From the NCBI GenBank assembly GCA_950295325.1, contig OX485806.1, positions 43,953,169-44,017,168 of the forward strand: 64,000 nt of DNA. Reading direction: 5' to 3'. The notes beneath the pieces were generated by a model that saw nothing but the letters and a program-made list of their open reading frames with translations, made no database searches and was not told the origin of the DNA. Origin of the DNA: Polytrichum commune (lineage: Eukaryota > Streptophyta > Polytrichopsida > Polytrichales > Polytrichaceae). Positions 25,886 to 62,989 of the stretch are shown here, piece after piece (the first letter of the stretch is position 1; each line of letters begins with the position of its first letter). The position numbers were made by a program, and so were the translations under genes.

Positions 25886-25894
25886 GCGGAGGCC

Positions 25895-28263: not shown

Positions 28264-28273
28264 TGTTTTATGC
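28264..28273. other. Target-site duplication, left of MULE A
   Basis: TGTTTTATGC directly precedes the left end; the identical 10 bp follows the right end at 46,399-46,408. Mutator-like elements duplicate 8-11 bp. Confidence 0.92.
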
Positions 28274-28330
28274 GGACGACACTTGTATGTCAGCGTAGAG
28301 CGGAGAGCGGAGATTTGGAGAGCGGAGAGC
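28274..28330 (+). repeat. Left terminal inverted repeat of MULE A
   Basis: GGACGACACTTGTATGTCAG followed by repeats of GAGAGCGG. The same start (GGACGACACACCTATGTGAG) occurs at 56,253, which defines the left end of copy C. Confidence 0.88.
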
Positions 28331-28788
28331 GTAGAGGAAATAAAATAGTAAACTTGTCAGACTAAAATTAGGATATTCCAAAATAGCCAAGAATATACCA
28401 AGAATATTCCAGAATTTGACAATAATAGTAAAAAAATTGGACCTATTTCCGTGGGATGTATAGGTCATAAAATAAAATAAAAACCCTGAATTTGAAATGG
28501 TCTCATTAAGTTTGGAAACCGTGAGGTGGTTGAATTATTAAAACCAATGATGACTACAAGAAAAATCAATGAAAATGGATTTTTTGAGATTGGTATAATT
28601 GAAGAATGAGTCAATCAATATACAAAGGAATCAAAATAATAAACTTGCTTGGTTTTTATTCATCACTTTTTTCTTTGTCTTATATGTGAGTCTATTCTAT
28701 AGCTTGGACTTTAGCAATTATCGTTTGTGGCCGAATAGATTATAAATTGGACTCATACCCAACATAATTGTATATACAGTTGCACACA

Positions 28789-29417: not shown

Positions 29418-32400
29418 CTAACAAGTAGACTTTGTCAAAAGACCCCCTTCGAGGATGAGTTTAACTTCGTTGAAGCTAAATGTCGGGGCGTGAATGAACA
29501 AATTCACTTCCGCATCCAAATTAGAAACCTTGATGAAAATGTAATACAAATGCTTACAATTCAAATAAGAATTTCGTTTGCGGCTGAACTTGGAAATCAT
29601 ATCCAAGAAAAATGCGCAGTTGCACTCTGGAAGAGAACTGACTGTCACTTGGTAGATCGGTGGTTGGGGTTCTGATTTGGACTGCAGTGTGATAATGCAA
29701 CCAAATCCCGGTTGAGGGATCATAGTTAACTTCATAACGGTACCATGCATAGCTTCAGCAGAGGCCACCATCTGCCTCTGCTTTGCCGAAGGTGCGCTAC
29801 TGGATCGCCGAACAAGCTTGGACAATCTTGTCGGAGGGATCATGTCGGGGTTTTCTGGAACACGGATTCTAGACATATCCAGCGGGGGAGCAGAGTTGGT
29901 GAAGAGTTGAGTCGGTGTGATGCGCTCCTTTGGTGGGAGTTGAAAACCTGCGTTCTCAAGGGCGAAGATATCCGAGCGGGTGAGGTTGGTACCAATCTTC
30001 ACGGGCCAGATTGGGGGAATAGGAGGCTTCTGGTCATGAGCAGAGAACGGCATGACCCATTTCCGACGAGGGCCCTTCACGCAACGCTCAATGTCGTCGG
30101 GGCAAAAGACAAAGTCCGTGCGTTTCATAGATTGGAGTTTGTAATGATGCCACATACCGGTGTAGGTCGGCGCAGGGACGCTCTTATTATTAGTGACGAT
30201 TCTTGCGGTGCACTTCTTCTTCGTGCCCGCATGATTAGCCCAACAAGACTTCCCAGACATATAGGGTATGCGGGCAATATGCCAAAGAGAGACATCTACT
30301 TTGGTTTCTTGCACGGCAGTGACACGTTGGAAACCAAGTCCTGCAGGTGAAGGCACTTGAACCTCTTGTACAGAGGGGGAAGACTCCTCAATGATAGTGG
30401 GTAGTGTTTCTGGTTGAGATCGAGTGACACGTTTACCGGGGGGAGGGCGAGAGAAGTTCACGGTATCGGGGCGGTGGGTCTCGCCATCATCACCAATTGG
30501 AGTGTCTGATCTTCGCTTCTGCGATCCAAACACCTCGGCGCCCTCAAGGTGTGGATCGCGAGTGCAAAATTCTTCCCCACCGGACATGTCAAGCAAGACC
30601 TTCTGCAACACTGTGGGGTCGCCAGTACGCTGAGCTCGACGTTGAGCACCCCTGAGCTTTAGTTCTTCTTTGCTTGGACCATCTCCGCCAATTCCACCTT
30701 TAAGGAACTGGTAGTATGCAACAACTTGTAAGAAGGCGCGAATGTAGTCGTCAACCGTAGCCACGTATAGATCTCCACCCTTGTTGCTGGAGGCTTGAAG
30801 CCATTTGTTGTGGACGGACTCCGCAAGATTGCACGACGGCATCTCGGCCAATTGGTCTTGGGTTAAAACCTTTTCCTGATTGGAGAAATCAAGTATTAAT
30901 ATAAATGTACAGAGAGAGGAAATCGAATCCAAGAAAAACCAATAATGAATTATGAAGGAGATGTACCAGTTCCATGAAACCACCCCATTGAAGGTAGCGG
31001 AAGTGCCAAAAAGCAAGCCAGAGCTGAAGATGCTTGAGACCGTCCTCACTTGTACAATTCGATGACGCCCACCAAGCCTTGATAGCTAGGTACCTAGTCT
31101 CAGCCTCTTCCATAGATGACGCATTTCGATATTGAAGGCAAAGATGTCTATGTTGGTCTTGTAACTCATGCTTTATATACGATTTCGTATGCTTTTCGAG
31201 CGATTGTTTCCAATGGAAAAAACAAGTGCGCTCACGACCCTCCATTGGAACTTTGGGATCCCCCGAACCATATACAATGCGAACAGCGTTCCAATTGGCT
31301 TGGGCACTGTCCGCCATGAAGCCTATAAAGTTTGGATGTGGGATACCGTGTCGGGCCATGACGTGGTTGAGGTTCTGCCAGAAGAGAACTTGGGCATCCT
31401 TATCCTCCGATTGGAAATCACAACATGAAATGGTCATGACCCGTTGATAAGTCCCATCGTACACATGAGCGGCCATGGTGGTCCACCCTTTGACCCGCTT
31501 CACGTGATCGGACATCATCCACGCGTTCTCCAGGTCCCCACCCGGTTGCATCCAACGAACCAAATCCACTCCACTTCCAGGACCAACCTCCGACATCTTG
31601 AAGACGAACACCTTGTCTGTATCGTCACCTTGTCCTGGGAATTGGTTCCGTTGGACGTAGGCCCAATTGCTAACGCCTCGGAGCTTTGCGATGCCATCCA
31701 TAACACCAAACCTCCGCAAATATTTGAAAGAGGTAACCTTAGAGCGAAGGTTTGGGGAATTCAACTCTCTACAGCTCTCAAAAACAGGTTCAAGCTCTTT
31801 TAAAGAGAAGAGACGGTGTGTGTCATTATCGCCAGAAAGGAGAAACTCACCAACAATGTCCTTGCTAGCTTCAAGGACGATCTTGCTGTGGGTGGCTTGA
31901 GGCGTACGTTCAACGTGCTCCTCAAGAAGTGCATTGATACGCTTCCGACTGTCTCTGCAGTCTCCAACCTTCACTGGATGTTGATGAGAACCGAGATGAA
32001 TGCAGGCTCTTTGGGATGACTCCTTCCCATGGACGTAGAAGATTTTGGCCTCGCATAGTGCAATGCATTTGGGAGGCTCTTTACAGATCCTGCAGACAAG
32101 AGTAGATCCGGATGGCACAATGCCAGAGAGACGGAAAGGATCTTTAGTGAAACCTTCAAATTCTGTGTCATTGACCTTAGAGGTACGATGGGCGCGTTGA
32201 AGGTAATCACAACTCGGGTTTTGGCATTGGAGATGGCCAACACAGGTAGAGGAACGAAATGCAAGGCCAACGTCGTTTGTAATGTTGGTGGTTTGAGTCT
32301 TAGTCCAAACATGGCCATCATATTGCTTGTCCATGCCGTCCAACGACTTGGCCCTGGTTTGAGATGAAGAGACTTCTGCTGCAGGGAGGACAAATAACTG

Positions 32401-33090
32401 GGTGCCATCGAAACGAGGGGGAAGGTGATTAACTTCTTGGATTTTGATTTTATCGTAATCTATTTTCTTGAGGACGTTCTTACTACCGGGCATAGAGCCA
32501 AGACGACGAAGACATTGAACAATAGTTTGAGGAGGTTTAGACGTAGGGACCGAAGGAGTTGAAGGGACAGAGCTAGATGGAGAAGGCGTTATGTAGGATG
32601 CAAAGGGAAACAAATGAGGGGAATCATGGACAGCAACCTTATACACTGGTACATCTTCACTCGAAGAATCAGACAAGTCTATAACGTTGTCTACACCAGG
32701 CTCGGTCTTGACGCTTATTACGGGGGGTGTGCTAAAGGCAACAGTGGATGATCGAAGAGGAGGAAGGATTTCTGTTGACACTTCCATCTGAGAATCTGGC
32801 CAGCCACAAACCCTATACTTTCCCGCGCCAAGCTCCCACACTACATTGCCATTGTCAGTTATCTTGGAGGTCTCATGGAAGGTATGAACGAGCAATCCAG
32901 TATCAGGATGGTAGATCTCACGCTCTACCCATATTGTACTAGCTTTCAAAGAGAACCTAATGCTAAGATGAAGCTCCGAGACAACAACAATACCTTGTGC
33001 ACCAATGGGGAATATAATAGGGACCCCGATGCCATGTGAACGAAGTTCGGCCATCTCAGAGACGGGAGGAAGAATTGAGGTGGAAGCCAT
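29418..33090 (-). CDS. MuDR-like (MULE) transposase with SWIM zinc finger
   Basis: Two exons, 33,090-30,967 and 30,875-29,418, joined in phase 0 by a 91-bp GT-AG intron; 1,193 residues. The start is set by the MAS[ST]S conserved with copy C. N-terminal part: Ser/Pro-rich linker with an acidic IDLSDSSSED segment. Then Cys/His regions CVGHLQCQNPSCDYLQRAHR and CRICKEPPKC. Catalytic MULE core: VYDGTYQRVMTISCCDFQSE, FMADSAQANWNAV and the C-x2-H RTCFFHWKQSLEKH. C-terminal SWIM finger CNCAFFLDM..NCKHLYYI. It cuts and joins the element's inverted repeats in the nucleus. It is open throughout and probably functional; the divergent neighbour gene starts 319 bp away. Confidence 0.9.
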
Positions 33091-33409
33091 GAAGGCAGAG
33101 AAAGCAAACGTGAAGGAACAAAGATGCAAAGATGCATAGAGAAGGAGAATGGTGATGACGATGAAGTTATAAACAAATACGCATGAATATCAGGAAGGAG
33201 ACAAAACTGTCAGGCATCCTAAAAAAAGATACCCCTAATTACAAAGATGGTTGTCAGATAGTAAAGCGCGCCTCCCATCGGGAGGTATTGCAATTATATA
33301 CTGAGAAGAATGCGATTGCTCACTTTCTTTCCAATGTGTGAGTTTGATGTGGTGAGGTTGTGGAAAGGAAATAGAGCGAATAGGTCTGAATTGCGGGAGG
33401 GTTGAACAC
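33091..33409. promoter_or_regulatory. Probable divergent promoter between transposase and basic-protein gene
   Basis: A 319-bp gap separates two head-to-head starts. TTTATAAC on the minus strand (about 33,166-33,173) and TTATATACT on the plus strand (about 33,293) are TATA-like at about 80-115 bp from the respective ATGs. Copy C has a TATATAG on the minus strand about 105 bp before its transposase ATG, which supports core promoters here. No experimental signal can be seen. Confidence 0.4.
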
Positions 33410-34357
33410 ATGAAGGAAATAGGCAATTCACAACCTCCGACAACGGAACCATCTAAGAAAAAGAAGAGGAGGCGATCGTCTACACATTACACTGATAAGA
33501 AGAGAAAGACAGTGAGGACACAAAAGTCACAGGCAAGGAAAGCGCCAATTGAGGGCCGTGGGACGCCCGAGGATTTGAGCCAAAGCATAAAGGACCTGCG
33601 GAAACCTTCGTGGAGGTTAGACTGTGGGATTCGGCCTTTTCATTTATCACCGATTGTAGAAGAGGCGGACGGAAGTAAAGCGCAACCAATGGCAGAAGTG
33701 GAGGAGTTGGGAAACGACAGCATCCAAGAGGACTCACGCGAAGAGACAAACTCTACAAGTGTCGTACGTATTCTTCGGGTTCTCCATATATTCAGTTGTT
33801 TGAGCACATAATGAAAATGGTAGAACATATTCAACTGTGAAACAACTTTTCTTTTAGATATTATGGTTTGTCATCATTGTTATAAACATTGTTTTATCTT
33901 AAATATAGGAAGAGGGGGGAGTGGAGATAGTGGAAATATCTATGAAGAAGACAACAAGGAGGTAGCACAACAAATTGAGAAGGCGTTAGAAGAGCGAGAA
34001 CCGATGTCGGGACAACCAACGATTCAAGCAAGAGAAAAAATGAAGGCGTCCAAGAGGAAAGCGGCAAAGGAAGATCTGAAATCAAATTTGTTGGGAGGCC
34101 GCGAAAGAGCTGAAGGAGGAGACCCATGCGCAGAAACCCTAAGTGTGGATGTTGTGACCCCTGCTTCAAGATTTCTGCGAAGCAAGGCGGGCGGAACACA
34201 ACAAACATCAAGGCGAGGGCGTGGCCGCGGGAGAGGAATGGCGCAAGTAAACCTCAGAGATTCGAGAAGCACTCCAATATCGCCGACAGAGGACGGGACC
34301 TTGGAAGATAGTGGCGCCAATATAGGGGCTTCAGTGGAGGGCATACTCCAAATTCTG
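33410..34357 (+). CDS. Basic nuclear-looking protein of MULE A, possibly the 5' part of the ParB/methyltransferase gene
   Basis: Exons 33,410-33,767 and 33,909-34,357 joined by a 141-bp GT-AG intron give 269 residues with no stop at the end. Contains NLS-like KKKKRRRSS and KKRKTVRTQK, an acidic region, and AT-hook-like SRRGRGRGRG. The second exon ends in phase 0 at GTAAGG, just before the satellite. The exon that begins at 41,263 (GAT then ATG at 41,266) follows an AG and is also phase 0, so both may be one gene with a 6.9-kb satellite-filled intron. Otherwise a short tail encoded in the satellite edge would end the protein. No domain family recognised. Confidence 0.55.
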
Positions 34358-37300
34358 GTAAGGTGTCGGGATCTCGGCCAAGCTATGTTCGCCAACGTTT
34401 TTGCTTTCTATCACCTTGATTTCTCATAGTATTTGGAATATCAGCTTGACTTGCTTTCGGCCTTGTCTTGATTTGGGTTTAGGAACATGTTAGGAAAGGT
34501 ATGTTTGTGCTTGAAAAATCAAAAGGTTATGTGCACATCATGTTGCTCTCGGCCTTGTCTCGTTTTGTGTAGTGCACAAGAACGAGCTAGGGCAAGAGGC
34601 CTCGGATCCGAGGCCTCATATTTGTGTAAGTTTGAGTATGTGAGAGGTAGGGTTTTGAGGGAGGTGAGGTTCTTGATTTCTCAACCTAATAGAATGTCAA
34701 CTTTCTTGCTTTCTTGATTCCTTGCTCTCGGCCATTTCTTCTATTGTGTAGTGCATAAGTGGGAGCCATAGGAAGAGGCCTCGGATCCGAGGCCTCTTAT
34801 TTGTGGGTAGGTTTGTGCTTGAAAAATCAAAATGTTATGTGCACATCAATTGCTCTCGCCCTTGTCTTGTTTTGTGTAGTGCATAAGAAGGAGCTAGGGG
34901 AAGAGGCCTCGGATCCGAGGCCTCTTATTTGTGTAAGTTTGAGTATGTGAGAGGTAGGGTTTTGAGAGAGGTGAGGTTCTTGATTTCTCAAACTAATGGA
35001 ATGTCAACTTTCTTGCTTTCTTGATTCCTTGCTCTCGGCCATTTCTTCTATTGTGTAGTGCATAAGTGGGAGCCATAGGAAGAGGCCTCGGATCCGAGGC
35101 CTCTTATTTGTGGGTAGGTTTGTGCTTGAAAAATCAAAATGTTATGTGCACATCCATTGCTCTCGCCCTTGTCTTGTTTTGTGTAGTGCATAAGAAGGAG
35201 CTAGGGGAAGAGGCCTCGGATCCGAGGCCTCTTATTTGTGTAAGTTTGAGTATGTGAGAGGTAGGGTTTTGAGAGAGGTGAGGTTCTTGATTTCTCAAAC
35301 TAATGGAATGTCAACTTTCTTGCTTTCTTGATTCCTTGCTCTCGGCCATTTCTTCTATTGTGTAGTGCATAAGTGGGAGCCATAGGAAGAGGCCTCGGAT
35401 CCGAGGCCTCTTATTTGTGGGTAGGTTTGTGCTTGAAAAATCAAAATGTTTTGTCCACATCGATTGCTCTCGGCCTTGTCTCGTTTTGTGTAGTGCATAA
35501 GAAGGAGCTAGGGGAAGAGGCCTCGGATCCGAGGCCTCTTATTTGTGTAAGTTTGAGTATGTGAGAGGTAGGGTTTTGAGAGAGGCGAGGTTCTTGATTT
35601 CTCAAACTAATGGAATGTCAACTTTCTTGCTTTCTTGATTCCTTGCTCTCGGCCATTTCTTCTATTGTGTAGTGCATAAGTGGGAGCCATAGGAAGAGGC
35701 CTCGGATCCGAGGCCTCTTATTTGTGGGTAGGTTTGTGCTTGAAAAATCAAAATGTTTTGTCCACATCGATTGCTCTCGGCCTTGTCTTGTTTTGTGTAG
35801 TGCATAAGAAGGAGCTAGGGCAAGAGGCCTCTGATCCGAGGCCTCATATTTGTGTAAGTTTGAGTATGTGAGAGGTAGGGTTTTGAGGGAGGTGAGGTTC
35901 TTGATTTCTCAACCTAATAGAATGTCAACTTTCTTGCTTTCTTGATTCCTTGCTCTCGGCCATTTCTTCTATTGTGTAGTGCATAAGTGGGAGCCATAGG
36001 AAGAGGCCTCGGATCCGAGGCCTCTTATTTGTGGGTAGGTTTGTGCTTGAAAAATCAAAATGTTTTGTCCACATCGATTGCTCTCGGCCTTGTCTCGTTT
36101 TGTGTAGTGCATAAGAAGGAGCTAGGGGAAGAGGCCTCGGATCCGAGGCCTCTTATTTGTGTAAGTTTGAGTATGTGAGAGGTAGGGTTTTGACAGAGGC
36201 GAGGTTCTTGATTTCTCAAACTAATGGAATGTCAACTTTCTTGCTTTCTTGATTCCTTGCTCTCGGCCATTTCTTCTATTGTGTAGTGCATAAGTGGGAG
36301 CCATAGGAAGAGGCCTCGGATCCGAGGCCTCTTATTTGTGGGTAGGTTTGTGCTTGAAAAATCAAAATGTTTTGTCCACATCGATTGCTCTCGGCCTTGT
36401 CTCGTTTTGTGTAGTGCATAAGAAGGAGCTAGGGCAAGAGGCCTCGGATCCGAGGCCTCATATTTGTGTAAGTTTGAGTATGTGAGAGGTAGGGTTTTGA
36501 GAGAGGTGAGGTTCTTGATTTCTCAAACTAATGGAATGTCAACTTTCTTGCTTTCTTGATTCCTTGCTCTCGGCCATTTCTTCTATTGTGTAGTGCATAA
36601 GTGGGAGCCATAGGAAGAGGCCTCGGATCCGAGGCCTCTTATTTGTGGGTAGGTTTGTGCTTGAAAAATCAAAATGTTATGTGCACATCAATTGCTCTCG
36701 GCCTTGTCTTGTTTTGTGTAGTGCACAAGAACGAGCTAGGGCAAGAGGCCTCGGATCCGAGGCCTCATATTTGTGTAAGTTTGAGTATGTGAGAGGTAGG
36801 GTTTTGAGAGAGGCGAGGTTCTTGATTTCTCAAACTAATGGAATGTCAACTTTCTTCCATTTTTGATTCCTTGCTCTCTGCCTTGTGCCCCACGGGCGAA
36901 CGCCCGTGGGCCATGTAACAAGTAACTTGGTTAGGCATGTCTTTATGAGGCACTTTGGTTGGTTCTGAGTATGTAAACTAGTTTGTGTGTGAGGCCTCGG
37001 ATCCGAGGCCTCTCGGCCGAGGCCACTTGAGGTTTTTTGATTCAAAGTATAACTTGTATGAATGAGGCACTTTGCTTGTTTTTGAGGATGTAAACTAGTT
37101 TGTGAATGAGGCCTCGGATCCGAGGCCTCTTTTATGTGTTCCAAAACAAGTGTAGAGAAGAGGCACTTTGGTTGGTTTTGAGTATGTAAACTAGTTTGTG
37201 AATGAGGCCTCGGATCCGAGGCCTCTTTTATGTGTTCCAAAACAAGTGTACGGAAGAGGCACTTTGGTTGGTTTTGAGTATGTAAACTAGTTTGTGTGTA

Positions 37301-41265: not shown

Positions 41266-44200
41266 ATGGACTCTTCACAGGTTGCGCAATCGCAACCCCA
41301 ATCTGGAGAGGATGTTGTTCTTGCGGCCCCCGCGGTTGAAGTTGAAGCTGTGCAGGTTGAGAGTCTCAATTCGCAGGGCCCATTACAAGTAGAGGTGAGT
41401 TGGATAGTTGTTGAATAATTTGTTAAGCAAGTTTTTTGAGTTCTAGCTTTCTAAGCATGGTTTTATTGTTTGTGTTTTTGTTAGGCTCTCGCAATGAGCG
41501 AAGATGCCGTTCAAGCAGTTGCCGACACGGATCCCGTGGTGTGTGAGCTTGAGCTTCGGAAATCACAAAAGGAGGACTCCATTGGTGTTATCCAACGCCT
41601 TCGGATTAAGCCAACATGTAAGTCCCGCTTATCCATTCCTTTATGCCGCTTGAGAGCCCTCCCTCTCGTCTGTCCTATCAGTGAGGTTGAGGTGCAGCGC
41701 TTGGAATGTGAATTTGTAATGGGATACCGAGAGGGTGATCGGGTTCTTTACGTGTCTTCTTTCAACGACGTTCCCGTGGATCTCCCCATTCCCCCTGGCA
41801 TTATGGCCTCTTGGAGCCCTCTCTGGCAAGAGGCCTCCGCAGAATTTGACGCCAAGCTCAAGGAGGATCCGGATCTTGCACATTTCGCCGGGAAGATGTT
41901 CTTCGTCTGGGAAGGCAATCATCGTCTCACCGCTTGGTGGAGACACATCAATAACCACCACGCCGATGACAAGAGTTGGCATATCTTGGTGGATTGCATT
42001 GTTGTTGACCCTAGAGGATACACCGGTATATTCCTCAATGCCATGAGCGACATTAATTGGTAAGCTCATTCATTTTTTTCATTCATTTTTCATTTTTGTT
42101 TCAATTCTTTTCCATTCTTTTCAGCTCACGTTCCTCACATATTTTTTCTCAGGTCAACCGAGCATGATTATGTCAAGGCAAACATTCCGGCCAAGCTCCT
42201 TCGAATCCGCACTTTTGGGAGGTTAGAGTTGTCCACCTTCAAGGATCTTATATCGCCATCTGACTACAAAGCATGCGAGAAGATAAAGGAGAGTCGCCCA
42301 ACTTGGTACACCTTGACCGCGGATGTGTTCGTTAAGTTTCTTTACAAGGTATGGTTTTATGCATTCAATCATTTAGAGCTTCCAACATAGATAATTTCCA
42401 TACCGATTATATGAACTCACAAGGTCATTTCTTGCAGAGAGACATTTCGGCTCAAGCAGACCTTGCAGTGAGGCATTATCGTGAGACCACACCCGTTGCG
42501 GAGAGGTCGGCCACTGAGATTTGGAATGTTATGACCAAGGCCCAGGAGAGGACAATCAAAAGTATTCGGGCCCGTTCTTTTGAGAAGTACATATCCGTTG
42601 CACACCCTGACAATGGAGAGGATTTCTTTCATGAGGTACTCTTTTGAACTCAAATCACTCTTAAACGCAATTCATCCAAATCACTCTTCAACTCTATTAC
42701 TCTTTTGAACTCAAATCATTTTTATTTTGTGCACAGATTGACCGTCATTTTAATGAGTTCTCTTCGACGGACATGACAATTGAAAAATTGCAAAAAATTG
42801 TCACATGCCCGGTCGAAGCTTCGTTCAAAGCTAAGTGGCTTCACTGGTGGAACGCCCCCCTTCGTGAAAGGTTAGATAACAAGTTCCCCGTCGACAAGCC
42901 TATGAGGGAGAGGGCTTTGGACGACTGGCTACACAAGGCGTCCTTCTGGGCTCAAGTAAATCCATTCCTCGGCCTTCTTCATTTTCATTTTCCTCTATTC
43001 CATTTATCTCATATCTAATCATCTCCTTCTCTGCAGTTGGAGAAAGAAGTCGCGGTTGAAATTGAGATCTTAGAGGAGAGCCTCTCCGTCGACATTGATT
43101 GGGACGCATCAGAAACTATCTTGCGCCCTCGTGAGTACGTTGATCATTGGCGGATTGTTCTTTGGGACAAGGCCTTCAAGCCTTATCTCGGCGATAAGCC
43201 TGACATCGCATTTGCCAAAGGTGATAATCTCTTGGAGTTCGAGGAGGGGGCTCTCGCTATCAAGCGTGTAGCCTATCGGTAATACATCTATCCTCCACTT
43301 TGCACCTCTCCTTAATGTCATTTCTTGCTCGTTTTGTTGGTTTTCTTACATTCTTGTTTTGTCATGTAGGTATATCATGAGAGAATTGGTTGTGAAGAAT
43401 GCATTGGCCTCATCTTCCTTGCCGGACTACCTCTCGGACTGGGTGAATATTTTTTCTAGCCTCTGCGTGTATACGACCGCGCAAACAAACAAGTTTTCCG
43501 AATTGCACTTGCAGGGTGGTGGATGGTACTTGGATTGTGCTGCAGGATTTGTCCCCGGGGAAGAGAAGGCTTTGTTTGCTAGCCTTGTGGGTAGTGCTCT
43601 GGATAATAACATTGTTACCTTGGAGGACCCTGACATCGTTGAGCTTCCCCCTCCTCCTCCTAAGGCACCAAGGAGAAAGGGCAGAGCAAAGAAGACCGCC
43701 ACTCAAGCATCTTCCCAAATTCTCACTCGGTCTGCTTCTAAGACCCCGGTTGAGCCACCCACCCTTCCACACAGTCCATCTATCGCTCCCTCCGTTGCTC
43801 CCTCTCTTGCCCCTTCTGTTACTCCATCTGCATTTCATCCACAATCTCTTGCCACTCCATCTCATAGTGGCACTTCTCTCCTCTCTTTGCCTCGCAAGAG
43901 GAAGGCCGCTCTCTTGGATACCAGTGCCACCTCTTCGGATGCCACTAACACGCTTACCCTCATCGAAAATGTGGACATGGTTCAACTAATGCTGGATTCC
44001 GAGGTTGCCGGAGGTCCCCTCCCCGCATATACCCGCATCCAAGAGTTCATTGCCAAGGTTTGTATACTTGCCTTCGTCAATTCTCAATTTTTTTTCCTTT
44101 GCTTTGTTTATTTCTTTCCTTCTTGTTTTCTCATGAAGTTTCAATTGCAGGTTGGGGCAGGTCGTTCCCGTGTGAACACCTCGACTACAACTCACAAGGG

Positions 44201-45390
44201 CCTCGATTTGCTCTTCGCCGACATTCCCGAAAATTTGCCGGTGCCGAACATCTCCACCGATGTTCCTGCTTGGAACAAGCTCCATGAATCATACTATGAG
44301 TGTCTTTTTGCATTTGCGAAATCTAACCTCTATGATCATGGTGTCCTTGTTCTTGCCCATTGTGCGAGTGCCAGTGTTTCTAGGAGTATTTTCGATTGGG
44401 CACACACTTATGACTTCTACGTCGCGGAAGATTGGTTTGGAATGAATGATTTAGACCTCCAATCTCCCGTTGTTCCCTCTGGAGTGGTAAGCAAGTCTCC
44501 CTCTCTTCCCCTTCCGTATTGCTTATCATTTCAATTTCAATTCAATTTCAATTCCATTTCATTTCAATTCAATTTCATTTTCATTGTTGCAGACTCGGAA
44601 GTTCAACATCAAAGTTCTTGTTCGTGTTAACTCCGTTCTTAGAGTGCGGGAGGAGGCCATACAAGAGTATGGTTACAACCTCCAACGAGATGGATGGTTG
44701 AATACCTTCACCGATGAGAAGAGCCAGACGATGCGCAGTGATGGGGTACCTTGGCGAGGTGCCCGTGAGAAGCATCCTGTTTTTTTTCCATCCTTCTCGC
44801 TACTCTCACCGACAAGAATGATGTTATTATGGACTGGCAGTGTGGTGTAGGTACGCCTTCTTTTTCAACTTCATCCTTACTTTGAATTTTCCATTATTTT
44901 TCCTTGACTAGTTTTCATACTAACATTTTACCTCTCTTTGCTTTAGGTGGTTCGATTACAGCATGTCGCTCCCTTGAGCGGCATATTGTGGCCCTTGAGA
45001 GTGACCCCGTCATTTTCAATTCACTCCTACTCCCCATGCGCGATCCCCAGCCTGCGCGTATATCTCGCTCAGTTGCCGCACCGTCTACATCTATCTTTGA
45101 TCCTCCTCAAAAGATGACCAAGAGGGCATTCGGATTTCTTTGTGCGTAAGTTTGCTTGGGTGTTTAGAGAGCCAGCGGAGGTCGCAGTCATTCGTCGAGA
45201 CATGTTTTCAAGTCCTCCGAAGCCGTTTGAGCTTCCCCCGTATGCTAGTGCAATGGTGGATTGTTTTGCGAAGGCGGAGTCCCCATCTCCTCCTCGCGTT
45301 CGTCATTTCTCGCGTGGAACACGAATTCTTTTCTTGTTAGAAGCAAATGAGGGTGAGGAGAGTGATAGGGAATGTTTTCCAAGCCCTTAG
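41266..45390 (+). CDS. ParB-like domain plus permuted DNA methyltransferase gene of MULE A
   Basis: Exons 41,266-41,394; 41,485-42,059; 42,153-42,348; 42,438-42,635; 42,737-42,955; 43,037-43,278; 43,370-44,057; 44,151-44,486; 44,593-44,850; 44,947 to about 45,390, with phase-consistent GT-AG introns; about 1,090 residues. Exon 2 has VWEGNHRLTAWW (41,905-41,940), like the ParB/sulfiredoxin-fold G-x-H-R box. A Pro/Ser/Ala linker follows (exon 7). Exon 8 has LLFADIPENLP at the place of amino-methyltransferase motif IV (usual D/N/S-P-P-Y) then HGVLVLAH. Exons 9-10 have MDWQCGVGGSITACRS and ERHIVALESD, like motif I (D-x-F-x-G-x-G..E-x-D), so the order is permuted as in N6-adenine/N4-cytosine enzymes. 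One base is missing in T8 at 44,780-44,787 relative to copy B, and the reading frame in the last exon near 45,140 is uncertain. ParB-methyltransferase fusions are known in bacteria and phages. Activity is inferred only. Confidence 0.65.
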
Positions 45391-46319: not shown

Positions 46320-46344
46320 AAAATCTAAATTTTCCGCTCTCCAA

Positions 46345-46375
<31 letters not shown>

Positions 46376-46398
46376 ACGCTCACATACTTGAGTTTCCC
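46320..46398 (-). repeat. Right terminal inverted repeat of MULE A
   Basis: Read on the minus strand: GGGAAACTCAAGTATGTGAG, then five GAGAGCGG-type repeats. It is followed by TGTTTTATGC. The same end is found inverted at 50,138 (copy B). Confidence 0.9.
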
Positions 46399-46599
46399 TG
46401 TTTTATGCAGACACTAGAATTATGACAAAAAATTGTCAACAAATTGCAATGTGATATAGGCAACACTACCGTGCATGTTGTTTGCAATACAAGATGCTAA
46501 AGCCTAGTTGTAATGTCAACCTTGTAAATGTGCAATCACTAGCAACACATTAACATGCAAACAAATAGAGGATGAATATGATTTAAGACAATTTTTTGC

Positions 46600-51518: not shown

Positions 51519-54500
51519 TCAAGAACTTGGACTACCATGTCTATCTCTATTCTCGCCCTGCTCGGCCAATACTAGTTTGTTTAAAAGGGGGATGCGACTA
51601 GGAGGTGGGAACGGTGTTTCCGCCAAAAAATGGGCAAGCTCAGCAGTATAGAAAGGGAGCTCGAACGTCGTCGAAGGCGTTGCAAACATGTCCGCATCAA
51701 GGACGCGAATGGGGCTCTCATTTTGAACTTTGCACATACATGAAGATTTAAAAGAAAATATGAGCACCTGTCTAAAACTATAATAAGAAAAGATAGAAAT
51801 GCAAACAAGTTAGAATCCAATAATGAACTTATGCACATATCAAATCGAAATTGTGCTTCGCCATCTTCCGAGGAGGAGGAGCAAAAACCGAGCTTCGTTG
51901 AGGGGCGGCGTATTGAGAGGTGTGTTCTTACTCATGCTCACAAATGGGGAGGAGGATGGACTTGAAGACATCAATGTCCAATTCAAGCACAACGATATGG
52001 CGTTGAATAGAGCGAGATGAAATGATGGAACCTCCTAGAACAACAAAATGTGAATAGGTGAGGATAGGAAAATGAATGGGAGATGAACCAAATACAAAAA
52101 AAATTAAAGCATCAAAAATCAAAAACATGAGAAACAAGGAGGTGAAGAATGAAGCAACGCCATATTGCCAATCCAAGATAATGTTGTCCTTGTTCGTAAG
52201 GGCGGAGAAAATGATGGAGAAAAATTCGGGGCGTTTTTCACGAGCACCTCTCTAAGGTACCCCGTCGTCCCTCATGGATTGTTTCTTCACATCAGTGAAG
52301 CTGTTGAGCCAACCATTTCTTTTGAAATTGTAACCCATGTCCTCGAAGTCGGACGTCCGGACATTCAAAACGGAATCATTACGCACAAGCACTTTGACGA
52401 AGCACTTTGACGAAGCACTTGCGAATCTGCATGAAATTTGAACGGTAGAATTAGGAATATATAAATGAAAGAAATAAGGTAAGAATGAAAATGGATGAAG
52501 CCAAAAAAAATTACCATTTTAGAAGGATTAGTGGGCAATTGGAGATCATGGTCATTCATGCCAAACTAGTCTTCGGCAACATAGAATTCCTCTGTATGTG
52601 TCCAGTTGTGAATTGATCTAGAAACCTCAGGATCAACGGCGTGTGCAAAGACGAGGACGCCATCGTCATGGAGGTTGGCATTTATGAAAGCAAACAAAAC
52701 CTCAAAGTATGTGGAAGAACGCTTGTTCCACTGATGAACATCCTCGGATGAGGCCGACGTGTTTGGCACATTGAGGTTCTCGGGCACATCTACAAAGAGT
52801 AGATCAATGCTTGTGTGAACCTTAGGCGTGGTGTTTGGACGAGTACGGCCCGCTCCAACCTGAAAAATCAAAATCCAAAGAAAATCAAAATAAAAAATTA
52901 AATGTGGAATTGCATTGAAAGAATGGATAAAACAAGATAACGACATACAAACTTTGGTTAGGAATTCTTCTATGCGGCGGTAGGCGGGAGGGAGAACCTT
53001 CGTCTTCATGAGATCCTCAATGAGCTCTCCCATGTCCACATTCTCAATAAAAGAAAGACTAGATGAGCTCTCCGAAGAAGTCGCCGATGTATCTGGTGCA
53101 ACAGCCGTCCTCTTGCGAGGCACCGATGGGATGGTTGCGCCGCTATGGGAAGGAGTGGCAACAGGATTAAGGGCAGGGGCAGAAGGAGTGGCAGTAGGAC
53201 TTCCAACCACGGTGGTGGCTGGAGCAACAATGCGTTGAACGGAGGCCTTGGTGGATACTTGAGAAGAGGCATGGGCGCGACCCTTCCTATCCCTTCTTTT
53301 AACTTTGACCGGCGCAACGTCCTTTTCAATGGATGGAGGAGCGGGATTTTATTCTTCCGGCTCTTCCTCCAATTCAATGACCTCAGGGGCAGAGCTTACA
53401 AGGGTGTTGTAAAGGGATTCTTCCACTTCTGGCACGAATTCACGAGAGCAATCCAAGTACCAACCACCGGCCACCAAGTACACGTGTGGAAACTTTGCAA
53501 CTTGCATGGCCGTATGGACACAGAGATTGGAGTTGACATCGACCCAATCTAAGAGGAAAGTGGGCAAGCATGAAGGAGGCAATACATTATTCACAACGAG
53601 CTCATGATGAATGTACCTGGAAAATGAAGAACATTGAGTAAAAAAATGGCGGTAGAAAGGAAAGAAAACAATATGCAGTAAATGAAAACTGAAAATATTA
53701 CCGGTAAGCAACGCGTTTGATTGCTATGGAGCCTTCCTCAAACTCCATGAGGCCAAGGCCTTTAAGAAATTTCAAATCGCCCTTGTCGTCAAAATACACC
53801 CAGAAAGCCTTGTCCCACAAAATGAGCCTCCAATGCTCAACATAATTGGACGGTTGCAAAATAGTCTCCGTAGAAATCCAGTCGATGTCGACGGAACACT
53901 CGTTCTCAAACGATGTGATCTCAGCCTCAACCCCCTTTTCCACACTAGAAATATCTACGTACACATACATGCCTCACAATACTCCACTCAAAATCTGGTC
54001 CTTATGAGCCTACCCCATGACCCTCTCAGATCTGAGAGGGTCCAATTCTAGCCCATTTCCAACTAGGTCGAAATACTCTAAGCAAGTCAGCTTAAAATCT
54101 GGTGCCTTGGCCGACTGGAAACAACTAAGCCGAACCAATCCACACAAGAAATATCTACCTACACATGCATGCTTCACAACACTCCAATCAAAATCTGTTC
54201 CTTATCATCCTACCCCATGATTCTCTCAGATCTGAGAGGGTCCAATTCTAGCCCTTTTACAACTAGGCCGAAATACTCTAAACAAGTCAGCTCAAAATTT
54301 GGTTTGTTGGCCGACTAGAAACAACTAAGCCGAACCAATCCACACAAGAAACATCTACCTACACATGCATGCTTCACAACACTCCAATCAAAATATGGTC
54401 CTTATCATCCTACCCCATGACCCTCTTGGATCCAAGAGGGTCCAATTCTAGCCCATTTACAACTTGGCCGAAATACTCTAAACAAGTCAACTCTATCTAC

Positions 54501-56252
54501 ACATACATGCCTCACAACATTGAGCTCAAAATTTGGTCCTTATGGCCGACTCGAAACTAGTAAGCCGAACGAGTCTACACAAGTCAACTCTATCTAGACA
54601 TACATGCCTCTCAACATTCCACTCGAAATCCGGTCCTTATGATCCTACTCCATGACCCTCTCGGATCCTATTCTAGCCCATACATAACTAAGCCAAACCA
54701 GTACACACAAGAAATATCTACTTAAACATACATGCCCTTCAACATTCCACTCGAAATCTGGTCCTTATGATCCTACCCCATTACCCTCTTGGATCCGAGA
54801 GGGTCCAAGTCTAGCCCATTAACAACTAGGCCAAACTAGTCTAAACAAGTAAATTCTATCTACACATACATGCCTCTTAACATTCCACTCGAAATATGGT
54901 CCTTATGATCCTACCCCATGACCCTCTCGGATCCGAGAGGGTCCAATTCTAGCCCATTTACAACTAGGCCGAACTAGTCTAAACAAGTCAACTCTATCTA
55001 CACATACATGCCACTCAACAGAGAGCTCCAAATCTGGTCCCTTGGCAGACTGGAAACAACGAAGCCGAATTAGTCTGAACAAGTCACATCTATAAATTCA
55101 CATACCCCACAACATTGAACTCAAACTCTGGTCTATATGGCCTACCCAAAATTATAAACCGAACTAATGTATCTAGTAGAAATTGAAGAAGAGGGTATAA
55201 GGAAAAACTCCAAAAAGAAACAAATAGTAGGCGCACCTCGTGGAAGAACTCTTCGCCATTATCCTTATGGGCGACGGAAATGTACTTCTCGAAATTTTGA
55301 GACCGAATGTTTTTGATGAGTTTATCTTGGGCTTTCGTCATAGTTTCCCAAATTCTAGGAACGGTTCTAAAAACTTCGGGAGTGGTCTCGCGGTATAGCC
55401 GTGGAGCAGTATCCGCTGCATTGGATATCTATCTCTAAACCAAAAAAAAAATTGTGTAAGGAGAAACGCCAAAAACATGAGGACGGAAACAAATAAGAGC
55501 GAAGAGAGAAATTACCTTGTACAAGAACTTAACGAAGACGTCCAATGTAAAGGGATACCAAGTTGGATTCTTCTAATCTTAAACTCGCACATCTTATAGT
55601 TGGCAACGGATAAGAGGTCTTTGAAATCCTCAAGTTTCATTTTTCCGAAGGTATGGATGCGAAGCAATTTGGCAGGGAGGTTGTCCTTAACATGATTGTG
55701 CTTCGTGGACCTAGACAACAAAGTCATGAGAATTCAATAAACAATGAAACTTGAAAACAAGTAAAACAGAGACAAAGAAAAAAGAAACAAGGAAAAGGTA
55801 TTTGAACTTACCAATTGATGTCATTCATCGCATTCAAGAAGACTGCGGTGGAATTTCTTGGATCCACAACAATACAGTCAACAGAGATATGTCAATCTTT
55901 ATCCAGCGAATGATGCTTATTAATGTGCCTCCACTAAGCCATCAATCAGTGGTTCTCCTCCCACACGAAGAACATATTGCCAAAAAGGTGAGCAAGGTCC
56001 TTGTCATTCCGGATCATTGCTTCGAATTCTTCATTGGCCTCTTGCCAAAATGAACTCCAAGAGCCGCGGATGTCATTGGAGACATCAAATACCTCATTAA
56101 GGTTGTTATAAAAGAAATATACAAGGCGCGGTCACCGTCACGGTAACCCATAATGAACTCATTTTCCAACCGAGCGACGTCAATCTCGTTGATGGGACAA
56201 ACAAGTGGAAGACAATGCACACGAAACAAAGGGATAAAGAAACGCAACTTCG
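51519..56252 (-). pseudogene. ParB-like/methyltransferase pseudogene of MULE B
   Basis: Matches to A's exons: exon 2 at about 56,252-55,811; exon 3 at 55,712-55,512; exon 4 at about 55,432-55,240; exon 6 at about 53,957-53,703; exon 7 at 53,620-52,951; exon 8 at 52,860-52,525 (LLFVDVPENLN, DGVLVFAHA); exon 9 at about 52,430-52,150 (RGAREKRPEFFS, LDWQYGV); exon 10 at about 52,040-51,519. Exon 5 is missing, and a palindromic array lies at that place. Stops in the ParB-like box at 55,946-55,948, 55,934-55,936 and 55,892-55,894, other frameshifts, and truncation by MULE C show that it is dead. The linker is Pro/Ala-rich as in A. Confidence 0.75.
53970..55110. repeat. Palindromic tandem array of MULE B (about six copies, 200-bp unit)
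   Basis: A 24-bp palindrome (half-site GACCCTCTCGGA or GACCCTCTCAGA plus reverse complement) occurs at 54,019, 54,219, 54,419, 54,654 (right arm lost), 54,782 (imperfect) and 54,920. The first three are exactly 200 bp apart. At 54,419 the centre changes symmetrically to CTTGGATCCAAG, so symmetry is kept. Units also contain CCAATTCTAGCCCATT and ACACATACATGCCTC. Confidence 0.92.
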
Positions 56253-56797
56253 GGACGACACACCTATGTGAGCGGTGAGCGGAGAGCAGAGAGGAAGTAA
56301 AAATAGTAAACTTTTATAGACTAAATTTAGAAACATAAAAAAAGATTAGGATATACCTAGAATATTCTAGATTATCCCAAAAATAGTAAAAAATGTGACA
56401 TATTCCCGTGGAATGTTTAGGTCATAAAATAAATAAAAAGGCCCTGAATCTGAAATGGTCTCATTGAGTTTAGAAACCGTGAAGTGCTAAAATGATAGAA
56501 AAATTGTGATATAATAGATAAGTAAATGATAAAAACCAATGTTGATCCCAAGAAAGAATAAATGATTTTTTTTTTAGATTGGTATAATTGAAGATATAGT
56601 CAATCAAAATACAAAGGGCGACCAACTTGCTTCGTTTTTATTCCATCACTTTTGTCTTTGTCCTATGTGTGAGTCAACTCTAGAGCTTGGACTAGAACAA
56701 TTATTGTTTGTGGTCAAAAAGATTATATTAAGCTGAACATATATGAGGACATAATTTAGACTCATACCCAATATGAATGTAGAGACACACGAACACA

Positions 56798-57352
56798 ATG
56801 GGAGATGAAAGAGATATGTTTGCTGACCTAGGATGAGAGAAGGAGACTAGAAGTCTAGGAGATCCGCATGTTCCTTTTAATTCATCGCCGGAACATGATA
56901 TAGGTGTTGCAAATCGATATAGTGATGACTACGAGTTGACTCCATTTTCGCAGTCCACACAAGCCTGGAGGTGGAGGATGCAGGAGGAGCAGAAACAATA
57001 TACAAAAAATGATAAAAGGCAAGCTGATGTGCAGGAGAAGGACAAAATAATGTGCATGAATAGTGAGGCAAATGATGAGGCTGATTTGAATGAAGACAAC
57101 TCAATCGACACGGAGCAGGAAGTCAAGGTGGTAAGCGAATCTTCGAGGTCTTTGTCGTTTCACGATAGGATGAGAAGATTATCGTCGCATCGTCGTCCAT
57201 TGAAGGATCGAATGCGGGATAAAACGGTTTTGTACGTTGATTTGCTTCAACCAGGTCCACCTCCATCAAGAAGGGATGATGAAATGAAGTCCAAATCATC
57301 TAGGAGAGTAGAGTTGGTAGACATAGGAAACACCTCCAAATTGAATATATAG
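56798..57352 (+). pseudogene. Small acidic-protein pseudogene of MULE C
   Basis: Collinear with 28,789-29,256: MGDERDMFADLG, then TGA at codon 13 where A has Trp, then DDYELTPFSQSTQAWRW, a charged middle with a short insertion, MRRL, RMRDKTVLYVDLLQPGPPPS. Otherwise open, with a longer C-terminus. Its preserved frame shows that the protein was under selection until recently. Confidence 0.7.
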
Positions 57353-57528
57353 TGCTCAACCGGGCGAGTGACACATGACACAATTGAATATTGTAATACA
57401 ACATTTTGAAGGGAATAAAAATAATCCATGAGATCATATTTATAATAGTAAACAATTATGAGTTCACATGAGGTCCTGAAATGGCCACATCTATGAGGGC
57501 ACAACATAGTGCTAGGCTGAGAGGAATT

Positions 57529-60500
57529 CTAGAAAGTAGATTGTGTCAAGAGGCCCCCTTCGAGGATGAGTTTGACCTCACTGAAACTAAATGTCAGGGC
57601 GTGAATGAACAAATCAACATCCGGGTCTACATTAGAGACCTTTACAAAGATGAAGTAGAGGTGCTTACAATGCAGGATGAATTTTGTTTGCGGCCAAATT
57701 TTGATATCATATCCTTGAAGGCCGGGCAATTACACTCGGGCAGAGAATTCACGGTGAGTTGGTAAATGGATTGTTTAGGTGCAGGTTTGGACTGCAACAT
57801 GATCACACAACCAAATCCAGGAGGTAGAATCATGGTGACCTTCAAGATGGTCCCGTCCATAGCTCGTGCAGAAGTCACCATCTGCATTTGTTTTTTTGAT
57901 GGTGCGGTGGCAGACCGTCTCGTAGACTTGGACTGCCTGGAAAAAAGATAAACGTCTGGGTTGGCTGGAACGTCTACTCCAGTCCAGTGGAGGAGCGGAT
58001 GTGTTAAAGAGGCGAGTGGGCGTGATGCGTTCTTTTTGCGGGAATTGAGAGCCGGCATTTTCAAGCTTGAGGATCTCCAGACGAGTGAGGTTGGTACCAA
58101 GCTTGGCAGGCCACACAAGAGGGATCGGAGGTCATTATTGGTCAGCATAGAATTTGTCGACCCACTTGCGTCGTGAACCTTTGACACAACGCTCAATGTC
58201 GTCAGGGCAAAAAAAAAACTTCTCAACTTCAGGTGTTGTAAATTTGTAATAGTTCCAAACTCTAAGGTATGCCGGGGCAGGGATGCTCTTGGAGTTGGAG
58301 ACGATTTTAGCAGTGCATTTCTTCTTGGTGACAACATGCATGGCCCAATATGCCTTGGAGGAATTGTAAGGAACGTGAGCAATATGCCAGACCTACTCGT
58401 CCACTTTGGATTCTTGAACAGGAGTGACCCGGCGAAAATCCAGACCAGTAGAAGGGGGTGGTGGAACCTCTAGCACTGACGGAGAGGTCTCCTCGACGAT
58501 GGTAGGCAAAGGAGAAGCATGAGATCTTCTAGTTCTCTGAGCGACACGAGGGCAAGAGAAGTTGATGGTGTCGGGGAGGTGGGTTTCATCATCGTATCCA
58601 ATGGAAGTGTCGGGCTTGCGTTTGTGCGAGCCGAATATCTCTGCACCCTCGAGGTAGGGACTACGGGTGCAAAATTCGTCCCCGCCAGACGTATCAAGGA
58701 GAACCTTCTTTTGAACAGCGGGGTCACCGGTACGTTGAGCACGTCGTTGAGCACATCAAAGCTTGAGTTCTTCTTTGCTAGGGCCATCACCTCCAACGCC
58801 ATCCTTTAGAAATTGATGGTACGCCAGAACTTGGAGGAATATCCTCACGGCTTTCCAATTGGCTTACACACTATCCGCCATGAAGCCATTGAAATGAGGC
58901 TTGGGGTTTCCATGGCGAGCCATGACGTGGTTGAGATTATGCCAAAAAAAACTTCAGCATCCTCATCCTCGGATTGGAAGTCGCAGCAAACGATGGTCAT
59001 GACGCGCTGGTAGGTTTCGTCGTATACGTGGCAGGCCATGGTGGTCCACTTGGTGACGCGTTTGACATGTCAGACATGATCTAAGCATGCTCGAGATCCC
59101 CGCCAGGTTGCATGCGCTTGACCAAGTCGACCCCATTACCAGGGCCGACCTCGGACATCTTCAAGACGAAAACTTTGTCCATCTCGTCACCCTGGCCTGG
59201 GAATTGATTCTGCTGGACATATGTTGCAACCCTTGCTAGTCCCCTTAAAAATCTTGCCAATTTCCATTTCTAGCAAAGGTTACGAGTGCTAACCCTTCGC
59301 ATACTGACATGCTAATGGTTAGCTCCTCCTACCCCGGACCTTATAGTTCATAGAAGGGAAACCAACCCTCCTACTTTGCTTTCGAGACTCACCCTTTTAA
59401 TCGGTAACCAATCTTTAGATGTGGACTTCCATCCATGGAAGTCCCATCTTATGTTGATCATCGCGTTGCCAGAGCAACACTACAACAACCCGAAGCATAC
59501 TAGGCAACTATGGCCTCACAATGGGCCAAAGCCCATGGAGGCCGTGCCGTTCGGCCTCGGGTGGGTGAGGCCACACCACCTCACCCATATAAGCCTCTAG
59601 GACTCTACGCGGGGCCCCTACCCCACTGTCAACCAACCTCTTGTCTCTCCACCAAAAGTTGGGGCCAAGTAAACATTTTCCCTTAGCCGCTGGGCCTAGA
59701 AGCCCCCAGCAGCTTCAGACCATCATAACTTCCTTGTATGATGTCTGATGCGAACAACAAACCACTCCGTCTTCATCTATGCTTCAAGTAGATGCCGATG
59801 GACTCCTCACTTGCCCCATTCGGGCAAGTCTTGGGGAAGTTATGCCTGTTTGAACCTTGGCAGTCCCGGGAATCACTCCTAGGCACTGCTGTACCAGGGC
59901 GCTGTCCCGGGACAGCGCCCCACTCAAATGGCCATAACTCCTAGCTCACACCTCGGATTGAGGTGTTCTTGAGCATTCTAGAATCACCACGCCATGAGCT
60001 ACGCATAGCTCCTAGCCTTACCCTCATGCCTCCTAGTCTCCGTGGGTGGGAGGCGTTCCCAACGCCCGAGGCCCTCACCCACACTAGGATCACTTGGGCC
60101 CTCTCACCAACGGCGCCACAAGTCCCGGGTGTCACTCCGGGGTCCCCCTTGTGCCCATGGTGTTTCGGGCACTCCTCATGGAGAGGTGCGCGACACTCAC
60201 CCCCACCAAACGGAGTCGATGCCCTCATCGACTATACTCGTAGTCGGCACACCAATTCTCAAGTTGCCATCCTCTATGGTGCCGCATTGTGTTTACCTTA
60301 GGGCGCGACCCCCACAATGCATCTTCAAATTTGGCATAGTCCCAAAGGTGTCGTTCCTAGGTGGTCCGTTAGCGACCTTGGATCTCTCCTCGAAGGACCT
60401 AACCTACACTAGACCCACCTACTTTGGGACTCACTTGGGTTGCCCCTCCTTTGGGGCCTCCCTCGTTAGGCTCCACTAGCCTAACATGACACATCTAGGC

Positions 60501-62279: not shown

Positions 62280-62989
62280 GGACAAAGAGACAGACGAATA
62301 AGAAAAAAATCCAAAAAAATGAATATGAGGCAAGGCGACTAGACGATTGGAAACCCTAAACTTTCAACAGTGCTACTATATAGGTATGAGAGGTAGGTGA
62401 GGGGTCATTTTGTTAGTGAAGGAGATGTATGCCCAGATAGTAGAGAACACAAAAGATAGCAAGAGAGGGGAACTGGAACGTACACATGAAGGAACCAAAC
62501 CAAAATATAGTCTCTACAATCGATCCAAGTAAGAAGCGGGAGGCACGAATTTCAGCAATTCGAAACAGAGGAGATGGAGAGAATTTAAGAAGAAGGAGGA
62601 AACATGCATAGAAGGGAGAGGGACCCTTATAGACTCGCAAAATATGTGTGCAGTGGACAAGGGAGGGTTGAATCTACTTTCGATAGACGAAGAAGCGGAG
62701 GACATTGGTTCACAAGCACCATCTATGGCACAGAGCGAGCATCGGAACAATTCAAATGAAAGCGGGTTTCGCGAGGAGAGAAGAGAGAATTCGATTATTA
62801 CAGTAAATTTGTCGTAGAAGTTATATGCACAAGGGACACTTAAGAATTTAGGTTTATGGGAATAAGAGAATGGAAATTCAAATCTATAGACATGGAAGAG
62901 AATTTGCAAACAATAGGGCAAGCAAGATATGGGTCGGGATTTTGAAAACAAAAAACTTGAACATCGGTGGGTTTTTGACTTGAAAGAAG

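Follow-up and report, generated by a model that had tools for sequence, protein, structure and literature searches.

The 64,000-nucleotide stretch of Polytrichum commune DNA analysed here (the window) contains what appears to be an accessory gene belonging to a Mutator-like transposon of plants that has been very successful. Judging from its sequence, the encoded protein would be a self-recognising DNA binder, most likely one that counters silencing; we give this reading a probability of about 0.42. Arrays of a short palindrome ahead of the gene are a new observation.

The element, its gene and their relatives

A Mutator-like (MULE-like) element of 18,125 bp, element A, occupies positions 28274-46398 of the window and has inverted repeats, imperfectly matched, at its ends and is bordered by a 10-bp duplication of the target site. 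It carries a methyltransferase-like (MTase-like) gene, and a decayed second copy of this gene lies farther along:

28264..28273, no strand: left target-site duplication, TGTTTTATGC, identical to 46399-46408
28274..28340, forward strand: left terminal inverted repeat containing AGCGGAG units, from alignment of 28285-28340 with the right end
29418..33189, reverse strand: transposase-like gene, with open frames at 30889-33189 and 29418-31085
33356..34429, forward strand: candidate accessory gene, from open frames; similar DNA lies upstream of the gene in genome copy L053
34498..41093, no strand: tandem arrays containing 40 exact copies of the palindrome CTCGGATCCGAG, from site similarity in arms versus flanks
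41266..45390, forward strand: MTase-like gene, copy A, 11 exons, from splice borders and homology to copy B, 20 fetched genome copies and Adiantum proteins
46331..46398, reverse strand: right terminal inverted repeat ending CTTGAGTTTCCC, from its alignment to the left end
46399..46408, no strand: right target-site duplication, TGTTTTATGC, identical to 28264-28273
51525..56250, reverse strand: copy B (B1) of the MTase-like gene, decayed, from exon homology to copy A
56252..64000, reverse strand: second element (B2, transposase half), from alignment of its left end and 70-75% identity to 28317-33035

The basis for the MULE label is the ends and the target duplication. MULE target duplications are 8-11 bp long (PMC6446971), and here a duplication of this size lies beside terminal inverted repeats, in one copy. 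The duplicated sequence occurs just twice within the window; as a control, at least 10 exact shared bases were found in 6 of 20,000 random pairs of 16-nt windows. The preliminary description had placed the gene in a plant DNA transposon, and these Mutator-like features bear this out. The left repeat matches poorly over its outermost 11 bases. The transposase-like gene includes DGTY, CFFHW and a SWIM-like stretch (C-x-C...C-x-H), all recognized by eye only, and its DNA is 70-75% identical to that of the second element; a Pfam search of the element returned no transposase domain.

The MTase-like gene was originally described as a spliced gene of ten exons. It is spliced and lies where it had been placed, and the other copies indicate 11 exons. 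Exons 1-9 have GT/AG borders (41266-41394, 41485-42059, 42153-42348, 42438-42635, 42737-42955, 43037-43278, 43370-44057, 44151-44486 and 44593-44850), and exons 10 and 11 (44947-45145 and 45168-45390) were read from the sequence and the genome copies. Copy A is damaged: a frame shift in the T run of exon 9 puts the exon with motif I out of frame with the rest of the copy. Exon 9 is in frame in genome copies L047, L050 and L051. The last intron of copy A has shrunk to 22 bp; this feature was also considered as a second frameshift, which was rejected by comparison with the genome copies.

B2 is inserted in exon 2 of copy B and extends beyond the window. Copy B holds a second palindrome array (about 53940-55072), has no match to exon 5, and is interrupted within the aligned codons by 7 stops, of which 4 fall on tryptophan codons. 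Both of the motifs that had been said to recur in copy B do have their regions there. Differences between copies A and B fall mainly at third codon positions (231, 180 and 420 at positions 1, 2 and 3), and across 734 codons, dN is 0.34 and dS is about 2.5, which is saturated. Because of this third-position bias, and because full-length relatives exist, the gene is not a product of chance. At the codon level, the two copies show past purifying selection on the MTase-like protein.

The 408-Mb genome yields at least 150 matches to exon 2. From the 150 copies listed, 20 were hand-picked across identities and fetched at 10 kb; 7 of these are close to copy A and 13 are not close relatives. The right end of the element recurs with a differing flank in 9 of the 20; in the remaining 11 it was not found within the 10 kb fetched. 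The family is also found in the fern Adiantum nelumboides (hypothetical proteins L7F22_*, here P0001-P0009), with a profile match of 99.8% over 738 columns. A search with an alignment of the two copies led to one Adiantum protein, and a three-sequence alignment led to the remaining ones. These relatives, which are known from proteins alone, share 15-25% identity with copy A across the MTase part. Several of the gene models are incomplete, and P0001 and P0004 each carry a GNHR motif plus motifs IV and I (see below). A search with the full-length protein, low-complexity stretches included, found nothing at E values up to 1. Among viral contigs, 32 stretches matched the pattern and none was a relative of the MTase part; among phages, there were no relatives of P0006, and two records of one Caulobacter phage appeared at E = 0.8.

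Palindrome arrays and their possible reader

In the array of element A, sites have a mean pairwise identity of 0.99 in the palindrome arms and 0.50 in the flanks. More broadly, arrays of the 12-bp palindrome CTCGGNNCCGAG precede the gene, and in some subfamilies they also break into it within an intron. At least three exact sites were found in 17 of the 20 fetched copies, and in 10 of 13 once close relatives of copy A are set aside. Among all 1,024 five-base arms, the arm of this palindrome ranked best, and the runner-up reached 7 of the 20 copies. Across the 11 sources examined, the arms were 0.91-0.99 alike among sites and the flanks 0.43-0.70, in a comparison where picking sites by similarity favours the arms. 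Genome-wide, there are 7,400 sites, versus 154 for a control (the reversed pattern). The spacer is mostly array-specific: the commonest one among the fetched copies gives GGATCC, and other arrays have AA, TT, CT or GT.

We propose that the protein, probably as a dimer, would bind the palindromes on its own family's DNA, which could recruit or protect the element. The effect would most likely be to oppose host silencing, as VANC does for VANDAL elements, and not ordinary methylation; array-specific spacers would keep subfamilies apart. A narrower version, in which a permuted amino-methyltransferase fold of bacterial type was taken up by a plant transposon superfamily, lost its standard catalytic motif and has become a dimeric reader of its own palindromes, with one spacer code per subfamily, so that self/non-self recognition evades host silencing, is a tentative idea that we regard as possible but doubtful.

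The closest parallel, by analogy, is the anti-silencing system of VANDAL and VANC in Arabidopsis. According to PMC5735166, the short motifs bound by VANC form tandem arrays within the MULE family that encodes it, in introns and non-coding parts. In both systems, a Mutator-like element has an accessory gene, short motifs are repeated in tandem in non-coding DNA and introns, and the motifs vary between subfamilies (PMC5735166). The system described here differs in having a 12-bp palindrome and a methyltransferase-like domain, and it is known from sequence alone. None of the open-access titles and abstract openings that were screened reported such a gene. If our reading is true, this would be a second, independently built route to self-marking by Mutator-like elements, via a plant protein domain of the bacterial methylase type, and a protein family would be tied to an explicit DNA code, CTCGG-NN-CCGAG, at thousands of places in one genome.

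Some observations are counterpoints to this reading. Three of the 20 copies (L057, L058 and L061) have no exact site and carry a one-base variant instead; contig C1 holds several clusters of sites that are not accompanied by any of the 150 scored exon-2 matches; and no VANC-like Pfam match was obtained. Also, tandem duplication keeps arrays alike and so preserves sites too, and the transposase or a host factor is an alternative candidate for the palindrome binder.

In particular, the palindromes might be transposase sites, like the subterminal motifs of other transposons, with the methylase-like protein having some other job. Any dimer suits palindromes, and the array of element A has the transposase gene on one side and the MTase-like gene on the other. 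However, that array is over 5 kb from either end of the element. Also, arrays sit immediately upstream of exon 2, and in four of the 20 copies (L059, L060, L062 and L064) exact sites are found downstream of exon 2 as well, in tandem arrays inside the gene. Overall, we consider transposase binding to be somewhat unlikely as the explanation.

The encoded protein

Three motifs were located in the MTase-like gene:

41899..41940, forward strand: FFVWEGNHRLTAWW motif, GNHR-type and ParB-like by eye only, from a seven-sequence alignment
44205..44237, forward strand: motif IV equivalent, DLLFADIPENL, aligned with the DPPY-containing part of YhdJ and of phage methyltransferases
44826..45005, forward strand: motif I equivalent, IMDWQCGVG/GSITACRSLERHIVALESD, interrupted by an intron and out of frame in copy A

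The first of these lies in a stretch whose M, V, W, E, N and H are invariant across the seven sequences. A ParB-like domain had been proposed here, and only the GNHR-type motif survives from that proposal. Searches of Pfam, NCBIfam and PHROGs found no ParB match, and all 11 PDB matches for this part of the protein were unrelated. We also compared profiles, using YbdM and four of 25 listed phage matches as the ParB profile. The scores (14.3, 13.5 and 13.5) were close to the shuffle means (12.5, 11.1 and 12.2), and a post hoc rerun without the middle insertion was still negative, with 27 of 200 shuffles scoring as well. The best local alignment does match GNHR to the ParB motif G-x-H-R, which is the sole agreement. 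More broadly, the first 926 residues have no match to any Pfam domain or family at E values up to 1, and for VANC homology this covers Pfam profiles only.

A true ParB/sulfiredoxin fold of the N-terminal domain, fused to a methylase and acting perhaps as a nickase or an NTP-driven clamp, would be compatible with either self-recognition or transposase sites. The motif and the order of conserved blocks look ParB-like by eye, in agreement with the best alignment, and a ParB-methylase from Bacillus cereus is reported to nick DNA (PMC5512222). Such fusions (for example, Bce_0392; PMC5512222) have the proposed pair of domains, but their hosts and lengths differ, and the ParB part is unsupported here. 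With scores no higher than those of shuffles and no family match, we view a ParB fold as unlikely.

In contrast to the ParB claim, the description of the C-terminal part as a permuted amino-type methyltransferase held up. Profile comparisons support the C-terminal 230 residues as a homolog of these enzymes, with motif IV before motif I. E. coli YhdJ, DpnA, CcrM and phage enzymes are beta-class amino DNA methyltransferases, and they share this motif order. When aligned by hhalign to a beta-class profile, the family matched with a probability of 90.9% over 200 colinear columns; 100 column shuffles never exceeded 2.1%, and the reversed profile gave 0.4. With copies from the same genome in place of copy A, the value was 84.0, and shuffles reached at most 1.3. 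The beta-class profile was built from YhdJ and three phage genes, or four of the seven translated methyltransferase genes; P0010-P0012, which have long insertions, and L005 and L009 were left out. Similarly, five of the six sequences found in the PDB were DNA amino-methyltransferases: two DpnA entries (E = 0.015-0.016), CcrM (E = 0.43) and two N4-C enzymes (E = 0.71-0.77). Unlike the beta-class enzymes, this protein is encoded by a far longer, intron-containing transposon gene and has D-x-P-x in place of DPPY.

The catalytic motif of beta-class amino-methyltransferases is [DNS]PP[YFW]. As first described, the equivalent is DIPE in copy A and DVPE in copy B. Exons 8 and 9 could be read in 16 of the 20 fetched copies, and 15 of these have DIPE or DVPE and the sixteenth has NVPE. 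The Adiantum proteins, which belong to the same family, have DFPx (DFPP, DFPT or DFPI) or DLPF. The catalytic motif is thus missing from all 16 genome copies read and from the fern relatives, and as judged from these sequences, its replacement is a family feature. The altered position makes catalysis by this domain doubtful.

An active amino-methyltransferase could mark its own element with 6mA or 4mC, for example at the GATC within the palindrome. The motif I region and the domain order are kept, the commonest spacer gives GGATCC, and P0004-P0006 retain an aromatic residue in motif IV (DLPF). Nevertheless, the genome copies have other residues at the first proline and at the aromatic position of DPPY, and arrays with the other spacers lack GATC, so we find an active enzyme improbable. 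The domain does raise the question of whether there are plant elements that produce 6mA or 4mC; 6mA in plants has itself been questioned by reports (PMC12695648).

Finally, the gene might be a captured fragment of a host gene, functionless for the element (as in Pack-MULEs) and beside an unrelated satellite. MULEs often capture genes (PMC6446971), but this explanation is very improbable given the many copies across deep divergence, the purifying selection, the right end common to 9 of the 20 copies, and the motif common to arrays that otherwise differ.

Element A and its genomic copies

The methyltransferase-like gene resides in a transposon, as the preliminary description had proposed. The relevant features of the window are

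28274-46398 (18,125 bp): element A
41266-45390, plus strand: copy A of the gene, inside element A
51525-56250, minus strand: B1, with the second copy of the gene (copy B)
56252-64000, minus strand: B2, a second element (transposase half)

Element A is flanked by two copies of TGTTTTATGC, which are a unique pair within the window, and its terminal inverted repeats are imperfect and contain many AGCGGAG units, with poor matching at the outermost bases. Of 20 genome copies that were fetched at 10 kb (L045 to L064), nine share the right end of element A, CTTGAGTTTCCC, but continue into differing flanks; it was not found in the remaining 11 stretches. The target duplication is documented in a single copy, element A. 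Conservation between element A and B1 extends into the 3' flank of the gene, and L053 and L061 carry upstream DNA resembling positions 33875-34390 and 32706-33159 of the window. By eye, the transposase of element A has MULE-like and SWIM-like residues; a Pfam search with it gave no matches. Alignments suggest that B2 was inserted within exon 2 of B1. Three repeats of about 0.8-1 kb (23095-24072, 59222-60197, and 63203-64000) are 93-94% identical; one sits between the transposase pieces of the second element, and pieces that are ~78% related lie at 37756-38443, inside the array of element A.

Across the 407.8-Mb assembly (64 contigs), exon 2 yielded 1,095 candidates and, among them, at least 150 scored matches. 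Of the 150 matches listed, 53 (including the window's own) are at least 91% identical and the remainder are 61-87% identical, so the family is probably old, with recent activity. Many of the diverged copies map distally (41.9-59.0 Mb) on contig C4, which holds the window at 43953169-44017168.

The gene had been described as having ten spliced exons. The splice borders are indeed GT/AG, and once these exons are spliced, the first 926 residues of copy A are in a single frame; the proposed last exon is instead exon 10, a 22-bp intron remnant, and exon 11. In exon 9, a run of T holds a frameshift that puts the motif-I exon out of frame. Among the seven A-like copies (L045 to L051), L046 has the identical frameshift and L045 and L048 have stops in the exon alignments. 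The other four (L047, L049, L050, and L051) have neither stops nor this shift in exons 2-11, so less damaged versions of the gene exist. Copy B, the older of the two, has decayed: it has seven stops among aligned codons, four of them at tryptophan codons, as would be expected from cytosine deamination. L057 and L058, which are 65-66% identical to copy A in exon 2 and 87-90% identical in exon 8, look like recombinants between subfamilies.

Relatives and domains of the protein

All of the protein relatives found are from one fern, Adiantum nelumboides: nine hypothetical proteins, of which P0001 led the query alignment and the rest had E values of 5e-99 to 4e-20. The ParB-like motif (GNHR) and both methylase motifs are present in P0001 and P0004, and GNHR with motif IV (the DPPY equivalent) is present in P0005 and P0006; the others are partial or resemble fused gene models. 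A profile of copies A and B matched all nine at 99.8% (E = 9e-28, 738 columns), so a chance splice is very unlikely.

By homology, the C-terminus is a permuted amino-methyltransferase, in agreement with the preliminary description. Copy A had a below-threshold Pfam match to N6_N4_Mtase (E = 0.075) that covered positions 171-215 of the 221 in the profile, at its motif-I end; copy B had none. PHROG methyltransferase 18293 matched both copies (E = 0.001 for A and 0.015 for B). In Pfam at E up to 1, two of the nine Adiantum proteins matched Methyltransf_23 (best E = 0.017) and one matched N6_N4_Mtase (0.084), all weakly. Against PDB at E up to 10, the A+B profile found six sequences: two DpnA, CcrM (with motifs IV and I aligned in order), two N4-cytosine methyltransferases, and one unrelated chain. 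A profile of the Adiantum proteins matched nothing in PDB. An eight-sequence family profile aligned over 200 columns with E. coli YhdJ plus three enzymes from phages, at 90.9%, versus at most 2.1 for 100 column shuffles and 0.4 for both the reversed profile and the N-terminal profile. With seven genome copies replacing copy A, the score was 84.0 (shuffle maximum, 1.3).

The DIPE or DVPE reported at motif IV recurs in 15 of the 16 genome copies read; L064 has NVPE. The Adiantum variants are DFPP, DFPI, DFPT, and DLPF, and motif I reads EMIYGTSP in P0001, DMGCGTSP in P0003, and EFGCGTAP in P0004. At motif IV, the second proline is kept throughout and the acidic residue is kept in all except L064; the first proline is replaced, as is, mostly, the aromatic residue. 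Our reading is that catalysis has probably been lost or changed while the methyltransferase fold was retained.

The proposed N-terminal ParB-like domain was not supported by profile similarity. By eye, VWEGNHR and the subsequent helix and strand resemble ParB, and the best ParB profile alignments do land on its GxHR motif. However, their scores (14.3, 13.5, and 13.5) were near the shuffle means (12.5, 11.1, and 12.2), family library searches with the N-terminal part gave no ParB matches, and its matches in PDB were all unrelated.

Palindrome arrays and a comparison with VANC

Element A contains 40 exact CTCGGATCCGAG sites (34601-41088), and B1 contains one, along with several variants; there are none in the other 39.7 kb of the window tested. 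At least three exact sites of CTCGG-NN-CCGAG are present in 17 of the 20 fetched copies (7/7 A-like and 10/13 others), while the runner-up among all 1,024 arms reaches 7. The other three copies (L057, L058, and L061) have no exact sites but have CTCTCGATTCCGAGAG-type sites, one base off. Four copies (L059, L060, L062, and L064) have additional exact sites on the downstream side of exon 2, among intragenic tandem arrays. Spacers are mostly uniform within each array.

Spacers of palindrome sites, by copy
AT: A-like copies, L052, L054, L055, and L064 (7 of 8 sites)
GT, some AT: L053
AT and TT: L056 and L060
AA, some TT: L059
AA: L062 (30 of 31 sites)
CT: L063

Arms are 0.91-0.99 alike among sites, versus 0.43-0.70 for flanks 15-55 bases off, with sites picked at up to two mismatches, which favors arm similarity; 28 kb of the window outside the element has just two such sites. 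Genome-wide, there are 7,400 palindrome sites, versus 154 for the reversed pattern. We compared the stretch of contig C1 spanned by the first 100 listed sites with the 150 scored exon-2 matches: it contains two of these matches, each with an array at most about 0.75 kb upstream, and its other site clusters have none. Arrays with TA or GA spacers (one AA) at C1:468612-471931, C1:2492785-2493792, and C1:2515385-2517231 have no scored exon-2 copy nearby.

Because the motif survives where the surrounding DNA is unalike, these comparisons argue that some protein requires the palindrome. As described in PMC5735166, VANC proteins bind short motifs that form tandem arrays in introns and other non-coding DNA of the MULE family to which they belong, and they cause loss of methylation there. 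The array layout of the moss element is parallel to that of VANDAL/VANC, but the parts are apparently unrelated. We therefore favor the reading that the methyltransferase-like protein is a self-recognizing anti-silencing or recruiting protein; it, rather than the transposase, would read the palindrome.

Elsewhere in the window, a hAT-like open frame (15528-17999, in 15181-19751; Dimer_Tnp_hAT E = 0.087, below threshold) is flanked by two arrays of 42-bp period; their repeat unit includes GAGGCCTCGATC, a sequence that is close to part of element A's palindrome, and a host factor could possibly be common to both. By eye, frames at 25862-27088 are like retrotransposon RNase H and integrase, and frames at 4604-9945 (minus strand) resemble a kinesin with a calponin-homology start.
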